Below are positions 4,497-5,707 of a stretch of 59,778 nucleotides of DNA, in pieces; the stretch's first letter is position 1; every line of letters begins with the position of its first letter. Source of the stretch: a virus. Where the stretch lies: positions 1-59,778 of the IMG/VR virus record IMGVR_UViG_3300021197_001267. One strand, given 5' to 3'. The notes below the pieces were generated by a model, which had not been told where the DNA came from, did not search any database, and saw nothing but the letters and a program-made list of their open reading frames with translations. Both the position numbers and the translations under genes were made by a program.

Positions 4497-4506
4497 TTCC
4501 ATAATC

Positions 4507-4761
4507 ATGTCGAAAGACAACAACAACAACTACGTAGGTTACGTAGAACCCCACGTCTCTTTCAAAGTCAAGTTCACCTTGGCCGAGTTGGAGCAGATGA
4601 AGCAGTTTGCCACAGAGAAAGGCAACGTCTACATCAAAGTAAACTGCACCAAGAACAAGGAGCAGAACAACAAAGGCAACGCATGGGCGGTCGTAGAAGA
4701 CCCGAAGTCATGGGCCTCACAGAAGCCAGCTGAAACGTCAGCGGACTCTATGCCGTTCTGA
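4507..4761 (+). CDS. small SSB-like protein with acidic MPF tail (84 aa)
   Basis: An 84-residue protein with a short beta-rich region (HVSFKVKFTLAEL, NVYIKVNCTKNKEQ) and a polar linker ending in ADSMPF. The C-terminal acidic-hydrophobic tip resembles the DDIPF tail by which bacterial SSB proteins recruit partners. Its place straight after an ERF/exonuclease pair suits a single-strand-binding or SSB-mimic role. It is much shorter than a full OB-fold SSB (over 110 residues), so the core fold is uncertain. The start at 4507 follows an ATTCCATAATC leader. Confidence 0.65.
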   Translation: MSKDNNNNYVGYVEPHVSFKVKFTLAELEQMKQFATEKGNVYIKVNCTKNKEQNNKGNAWAVVEDPKSWASQKPAETSADSMPF

Positions 4762-4767
4762 ACCAGA

Positions 4768-4841
4768 GGGGTGGCGCATGGTGTGCAGGGAGAGCCTGCA
4801 ACAAGGCTTATGTATTGAGCCTTAGGAAACAAAGCCACCCC
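4768..4841 (+). ncRNA. candidate three-way-junction structured RNA
   Basis: Three perfect nested helices are visible. P1 pairs GGGGTGGC (4768-4775) with GCCACCCC (4834-4841), 8 bp. P2 pairs TGCAGG (4784-4789) with CCTGCA (4795-4800) around a GAGAG loop. P3 pairs AAGGCT (4803-4808) with AGCCTT (4818-4823) around a 9-nt loop. The junction strand 4824-4833 is purine-rich (AGGAAACAAA). It begins 6 bp after a stop codon and ends 6 bp before the tRNA. No T-arm or anticodon arm fits, so it is not a tRNA. I do not recognise a class. Confidence 0.6.
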
Positions 4842-4847
4842 GTATCT

Positions 4848-4921
4848 GCCCTTGTAGCTCAGTTGGATAGAGCACCCGCCTTCTAAGCGGGCGGTCACAG
4901 GTTCGAATCCTGTCGGGGGTA
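4848..4921 (+). tRNA. tRNA-Arg (anticodon TCT)
   Basis: Full cloverleaf: acceptor 4848-4854 with 4914-4920 (three G-U pairs, the rest Watson-Crick), D arm GCTC/GAGC, anticodon stem CCCGC/GCGGG with loop CTTCTAA (anticodon TCT at 4882-4884), variable loop CGGTC, and T arm ACAGG-TTCGAAT-CCTGT. The discriminator is A4921. CCA is not encoded (CTT follows). It reads AGA codons, which are common in this phage's genes, so it probably supplements the host pool. Confidence 0.95.
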
Positions 4922-5209
4922 CTTCCCATATCTTCTAGCCCTTGCGGGTAAAAGACTCTACCTTGTCGGGTGAGGTGGGATATCCAGTCATGTCTTGTTC
5001 GCTGTCGAAGCTATGTCGGAAGATTTGTTTAAGCGACAACAGACAAATGATTAAATGGGGGCCGCAAGGTTGACGACTCATTACCCTTTATGGATATCAA
5101 AGACTGACAGCTGGAAAGACAGCATCGCTTTTAAGGTAGCATGGTGGCCGCATCTGTGCGTGCGCGTGAGGTGTTCGATTCCCCTCCTCCCTTCCAAAAT
5201 TTAATTCAA
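4922..5209 (+). other. non-coding stretch downstream of the tRNA with several weak secondary structures
   Basis: No convincing gene lies between the tRNA and the ATG at 5210. Visible elements are TCCCA (4924-4928) pairing with TGGGA (4976-4980) around a GCCC-TTGC-GGGT hairpin, and the inverted repeat ATTTGT/ACAAAT around 5023-5047. There is also a T-arm-like GTTCGATTCCCC near 5171-5182 followed by an encoded CCA at 5194-5196. I could not fold this last part into a tRNA. The stretch may be an RNA-processing region or decayed tRNA genes. Confidence 0.4.
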
Positions 5210-5707
5210 ATGAAAAAGAAACCTACTAACCCCTTTCTTCTTGAGGCTAGGAACAGATACTTCGAAGCCATTGGACTAGCCGACAAGAGCAGGACGTCCA
5301 AGCAAAGATGGATGAAGAACAGGAAGCGACACATCGTGGAGCAGAGAGCGGCTCTGTTCAATGCAGTGTCTCCCTTCTGCGGCAGGGCTGACTGCGCATC
5401 CATGTTCAACAAGGACCACGCCACGGTGCTTCACGCTATCAAGAGTCATGAGATGTACTTGAAATACAGCGCAAACTATGGGCAGGTTTATGAGCAAGCA
5501 ACTAAGATTGTTGCCGACCTTGCAAAGGAAATGAGAGTCTACCCCATGGGCCAGTACAGACATTACGTTAGTAGTGAGTCAGAACTAGAGTCCCTACAAA
5601 GAACCCTTGATAATCTTCAAACAACATTAGACCATGTCAAAGACCGCGTCAGAAAAAATACGAACCCAGTGCGAGAGTATCGCGGAGTTCTTAGTGGAGA
5701 AGAATAA
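5210..5707 (+). CDS. DnaA domain IV-like DNA-binding protein (165 aa)
   Basis: Residues 68-81 (NKDHATVLHAIKSHE) match the DnaA domain IV signature, in which DH-T/A-TV-x-HA binds the DnaA box, and are preceded by the expected helices (EQRAALFNAV, CASMF). There is no AAA+ domain, so this is a stand-alone origin-binding-type module. It may mark a phage origin or compete with host DnaA; both are inferences. A helical tail follows (ELESLQRTLDNLQTTLDHVK). I chose ATG 5210, after an AATTTAATTCAA leader, over an upstream GTG at 5141 that would lie in the structured RNA region. It overlaps the next gene by 74 bp. Confidence 0.72.
   Translation: MKKKPTNPFLLEARNRYFEAIGLADKSRTSKQRWMKNRKRHIVEQRAALFNAVSPFCGRADCASMFNKDHATVLHAIKSHEMYLKYSANYGQVYEQATKIVADLAKEMRVYPMGQYRHYVSSESELESLQRTLDNLQTTLDHVKDRVRKNTNPVREYRGVLSGEE

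Follow-up and report, generated by a model that had tools for sequence, protein, structure and literature searches.

The locus and the fold of E1

The virus record that makes up the window, i.e. the whole stretch of DNA analysed, is 59,778 bases long and encodes Erf, a PDDEXK-like nuclease, a DnaB-like primase-helicase and a terminase. A 74 nt three-way junction with stems of 8, 6 and 6–8 bp, termed E1 here, lies on the plus strand at 4768–4841, in a gap bounded by the stop codon of an 84-aa gene and by a tRNA-Arg(UCU) gene. On its 3′ side, E1 is followed by about 370 nt in which no protein gene is encoded. The features are as follows.

4507–4761, plus strand: 84-aa gene, 5′ neighbour of E1; stop codon TGA at 4759–4761; 83–89 % identity in the related loci L001–L007
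4768–4841, plus strand: E1, three-way-junction RNA (folding, covariance model, covariation)
4768–4775, plus strand: 5′ strand of P1, 8 bp with 4834–4841; covaries
4778–4782, plus strand: core AUGGU, junction strand 1/2 (sequence)
4784–4800, plus strand: P2 hairpin, 6 bp (4784–4789/4795–4800), pentaloop GAGAG at 4790–4794
4803–4823, plus strand: P3 hairpin, 4803–4810/4816–4823, 8 bp in the centroid; length and sequence vary among relatives
4826–4831, plus strand: core GAAACA, junction strand 3/1 (sequence; family matches)
4834–4841, plus strand: 3′ strand of P1, pairs with 4768–4775
4848–4922, plus strand: tRNA-Arg(UCU), neighbour of E1 (ARAGORN, Rfam)

The minimum free energy of E1 is −35.9 kcal/mol, compared with −22.06 (sd 2.61) for 200 dinucleotide shuffles (z −5.30), none of which was as good. 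The helix lengths of 8, 6 and 6 bp proposed in the initial annotation hold for P1 and P2; P3, however, has 8 bp in the centroid rather than 6. The 84-aa protein had been labelled SSB-like, a label that Pfam and PHROG searches did not support, as neither gave a match. No terminator-like site was called at P1 of the window copy, no promoter-like site was called within 4500–5300, and the covariance model found no second E1 copy in the window.

In agreement with the view that E1 is neither a tRNA nor a hammerhead, ARAGORN and the Rfam model RF00005 call only 4848–4922, and there is no hammerhead match in Rfam even at an E value of 10. With Rfam 15 only the tRNA reaches the cut-off, both in the window and seven related loci at the gathering score and in window positions 4600–5300 and two relatives at E values up to 10. 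The hammerhead covariance model does not match E1, nor does any Rfam ribozyme family. E1 is therefore still unclassified, as first described, and searches of the open-licence PMC literature listed no description of it. To the extent that Rfam 15 was searched, the family is not represented there.

Relatives and extent of the family

The 84-aa gene retrieves seven viral loci, and an eighth, L028, came from a pattern search. E1 is retained in all eight of these near relatives, 5′ of a tRNA-Arg-like gene. Stems change in step among them (P1 in its outer pairs, P3 entirely), and the junction strands are nearly constant. P2 carries a compensatory change in L006, from GCAGG/CCUGC to GUAGG/CCUAC.

The wider family was collected by two pattern scans of viral contigs, the first using the P2 core and the second with fewer fixed letters, followed by a covariance model. 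Its architecture is P1, AUGGU, P2 with a GAGAN loop, C, a variable P3, GAAACA and the closing strand of P1. At least 57 distinct sequences with P2 and GAAACA were in hand after the first scan and at least 120 over all loci after the second, at least 101 of them with a P1 of 4 bp or more; the figure of 120 is a lower bound on family size. A decoy version of the pattern, in which AGAG replaced GAGA, returned 5 stretches, as against at least 120 for the real pattern. P2 was formed in none of the 4 distinct decoys, compared with 85 of the 87 distinct real matches listed, and P2 together with a P1 of 4 bp or more in 69 of the same 87. E1 is almost certainly one copy of a real RNA family that is widespread among uncultured phages.

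Searches in other collections gave little. Model R1, run on 29 sources, matched in the window only. A loose scan of genome contigs with the window's own AGGAAACAAAG returned 89 stretches and was set aside; among the matches listed, the P2 core with a GAGA loop was seen by eye only in the window group. BLAST with the window E1 and a 32 nt consensus gave weak matches only in cultured phages, and BLAST against plasmids likewise, including three intergenic matches of 26 nt. No E1-bearing cultured phage was reached through three neighbour proteins, the four stretches fetched being without a match. E1 was found in none of 295 genomes from the class around a Pustulibacterium genome and in none of 398 from the phylum around an Alteromonas genome, both under strict filters that weak copies could escape. 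Among 395 genomes from the phylum around a Bacteroidales genome, 22 held the bare pattern, and none of the 20 fetched had both stems.

Covariation and variation of the core

When 103 matches were aligned to the model, 88.8 % of cells paired, and 513 cells were changed on both sides, compared with 151.4 in shuffled alignments (0 of 500). The covariation score of this alignment, which is fitted to the covariance model, was 0.699, as against 0.197 when shuffled and at most 0.172 when slid. Both sides change in 17 of 18 pairs, a count that taken alone lies within the shuffles (177 of 500). A MAFFT alignment of 20 sequences made before the model existed scored 0.512 (0.225 shuffled, at most 0.222 slid), with both sides changing in 14 of 16 pairs. 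P3 is the weakest helix, with 64.2 % of cells paired, in part because its length varies. The outermost P2 pair occurs as U-A, C-G, G-C and A-U; since these nucleotides flanking P2 covary, P2 has 6 bp. A check for covarying pairs in related genomes, as initially suggested, is thus positive, and because relatives show covariation a chance fold is excluded, in line with the initial judgement that chance formation was unlikely.

Conservation of the core letters is partly imposed, because the search patterns fixed AUGGU(GU), GAGA, C/AAC and GAAACA; real variation of the core is visible only in copies found by the model alone and in the coding family described below. Five copies retrieved by the covariance model alone have GUGGU with GAAUCA. 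The C of junction strand 2/3 is the pairing partner of the second G in AUGGU, and this G-C pair is A-U in 2 of 25 coding-family members.

Placement among genes

Placement was taken from a crude ORF call on the 103 matches, at loci mostly chosen because a pattern had found E1 there. Sixty-four matches lie outside ORFs and 39 within (27 antisense, 12 sense); the 27 antisense placements probably reflect spurious ORFs. Of those outside, 48 are between two same-strand ORFs, and AUGGU lies 11–20 nt past the stop codon in 33 of the 56 matches with a same-strand left ORF. Typically, then, E1 immediately follows the stop codon of its 5′ neighbour and shares that gene's strand. Readthrough was ruled out, as was a reading frame common to the copies: the distance between stop codon and core is not constant in frame, and P3 differs in length.

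Positions 3′ of P1 were counted in 83 sequences, leaving out the 18 of 101 whose P1 is shorter than 5 bp. U is enriched over roughly the first six nt (0.52–0.55 at positions 3–5, compared with 0.23 further on). TTTT occurs within 10 nt after P1 in 19 of 83 (compared with 2 of 83) and is missing in the other 64. Tandem pairs of E1 are present in seven loci (L190, L348, L351, L352, L410, L411 and L422). Whole virus records, chosen for having a copy, hold one in 35 of 39 cases and two in 4. Neighbouring genes, for 22 of which the protein was compared with PHROG (including proteins that enclose a copy), include helicases, Erf, DnaA-like genes (named for their likeness to the window's own weak DnaA_C match), structural genes and genes of unknown function.

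The tRNA is an uncommon neighbour. ARAGORN found a tRNA in 4 of 50 related loci, adjoining E1 in three (L180, L284 and L297), and none in the remaining 46. Ten more distant relatives, related through the helicase or through E2 (see below), keep the tRNA and lack E1, with a different, G+C-rich hairpin in the gap; this hairpin is followed by a U-run in L172, L176, L177 and L298. E1 thus occupies a site at which relatives hold terminator-like hairpins, and its link to the tRNA is mostly incidental. Neither set of loci supports the tie to the tRNA, or the role as a processing element, raised in the initial annotation. That annotation had also named relatives that keep the tRNA without conserved or covarying helices as evidence against the structure; on a strict reading the ten relatives answer in part to this description, and only as regards a part in tRNA processing.

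Copies within reading frames

One protein, apparently glycosyltransferase-like on a reading of its sequence and without a PHROG match, carries E1 translated as NGVQGDPATG...PHETK. Of its homologues 36 were found and 29 searched; E1 is at the same place in 25, two of them weakly (E 0.05–0.07). Mobile insertion was considered and rejected, as E1 is stable at this one place; the search turned up no empty site. Two terminases with an overall identity of 74 % hold E1 in a poorly conserved linker and in a frame different from that of the glycosyltransferase-like protein. As E1 is read in different frames by two protein families, the constraint acts on the RNA. One terminase gene (L269, 6506–9298) also has an intein-like insert relative to L207.

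Other RNAs around the locus

A second conserved RNA, E2, is located downstream of the tRNA at window positions 4956–5123 and has no Rfam match in the window. It consists of a 5′ hairpin with a UUGUCG loop, a helix GAUAUCC/GGAUAUC and a 3′ hairpin with a GAAAGA loop; the helix covaries, with 2 pairs changed on both sides among 11 sequences. E2 is also present in L001, L002, L004, L028, L155, L159, L162, L167, L298 and L302 and, in more divergent form, in L300, L305, L309 and L311, and Flavobacterium phage FL-1 has an E2-similar stretch between genes. On the minus strand of L297, copies of the 3′ hairpin are found just 5′ of tRNA-Glu and tRNA-Asp, and one copy in L297 directly follows an E1 copy. 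In L300 and L311 the 3′ hairpin is followed by TTTTTT.

A tRNA-like element at window positions 5133–5195, also found in L001, L002, L006 and L007, has a T-arm-like hairpin and no D-stem. It has GCAUGGUG in common with E1 and was not called by ARAGORN. In L001, L002, L006 and L028 a different tRNA-like element (TCGGAAG...CTTCCGA) is located downstream of the tRNA; the part before its T-arm is unusually arranged, and the element is absent from the window. Downstream of E2, L162 has a further one with an 8 bp acceptor-like stem, CGGTCATC...GATGACCG.

Comparison with known RNAs and alternative explanations

Riboswitch aptamers with three-way junctions have a closing P1 under a conserved junction, tandem copies and cis placement, all of which E1 shares. 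Unlike them, E1 has no evident common downstream gene set and no Rfam match, and some copies are within ORFs. Three stems around a purine-rich core recall the hammerhead, whose core strands differ from those of E1. Like an intrinsic terminator, E1 has a G+C-rich stem that is located 3′ of a stop codon and is often followed by U-rich sequence; the E1 stem, in contrast, encloses a conserved two-hairpin junction, and the window copy lacks a U-run. An unregulated 3′-end element, in which P1 would be a terminator or an exonuclease barrier protecting the upstream mRNA, would account for the position directly after stop codons, the U-rich flank and the terminator-like hairpins at the same site in relatives. 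The conserved junction would be superfluous for a plain terminator, however, TTTT is missing in 64 of 83 copies and coding copies exist, so that this explanation is considered unlikely. A small RNA or decoy that arises by processing of mRNAs and binds a host or phage factor in trans would suit the compact fold and a core constant across unrelated contexts, coding regions included; the want of a promoter-like site around the window copy, the tandem copies and the steady placement at gene junctions make it distinctly unlikely.

A put/nut-like antitermination RNA rides on RNA polymerase. Such a role would be compatible with coding as well as non-coding positions, with one or two copies per record and with the approximately 370 nt free of protein genes after the window copy, yet it appears very unlikely, as E1 is not found particularly at operon starts and is often between two same-strand genes. 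That E1 is a self-cleaving ribozyme or a tRNA 5′-leader processing element is more improbable still: a three-way junction does adjoin a tRNA in the window and in three other loci, but 46 of 50 loci have none, copies occur inside ORFs and no Rfam ribozyme family matches. There is precedent for phages using tRNA-linked ribozymes in the HDV-like theta ribozymes of gut phages, whose tRNA-associated matches are reported to be within 5 nt of a tRNA (PMC10879173). E1 resembles the theta ribozyme as a small structured phage RNA that may adjoin a tRNA. It differs in that its family is mostly without a nearby tRNA and, on comparison by eye with the nested double pseudoknot of the theta ribozyme, in having outer strands that do no more than close a three-way junction. 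A protein-coding motif or a chance fold has a negligible probability. The core is translated as NGVQGDPATG in one protein family; a second family uses a different frame, P3 lengths break any common frame, and stems that change in step refute both.

Proposed role

E1 may, as a tentative preference, be a cis-acting conditional element at gene junctions, with a presumed switch. Of the three roles initially suggested (processing element, small RNA, cis regulator), the last thus fares best, as a proposal rather than an observed activity. This reading is suggested by covariation of P1, P2 and P3, by placement after stop codons and between same-strand ORFs, by the U-rich flank after P1 and the G+C-rich hairpin at the site in ten E1-less relatives, and by the tandem pairs in seven loci and one or two copies per record. 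A regulated junction is preferred to a plain hairpin because a plain hairpin would not require the conserved core, and a ribozyme or terminator is disfavoured because either would damage the genes that carry E1 in frame. Several observations count against a cis-acting element: the downstream genes are diverse, which is unusual for riboswitches; TTTT is missing after P1 in 64 of 83 copies and the window P1 has no terminator-like site; a terminator would do harm in the copies within ORFs; and short gaps in compact genomes could by themselves put any element beside a stop codon.

As a cis-acting element, the nascent RNA would fold into E1 after the ribosome clears the stop codon, and the conserved core would bind a factor or ligand. 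The extent to which transcription or translation continues beyond E1 would then depend on whether P1 holds; in the window, the part controlled would be the tRNA together with the downstream RNAs and the genes for replication.

A broader and rather doubtful possibility is that E1 is a general device of tailed phages, recognising a factor common to many hosts, for which RNA polymerase, the ribosome or a common metabolite would be candidates, and controlling passage into the next gene. If so, it would work between genes, in tandem and inside ORFs, and would represent a class without a described counterpart. Once its function is known, the family may instead prove to be a case of a known mechanism, for example attenuation. 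Tests of binding to ligands, polymerase and ribosomes have a defined target in E1. A constant core with compensatory changes in unrelated phages, even in coding sequence, must serve a need of many phages.
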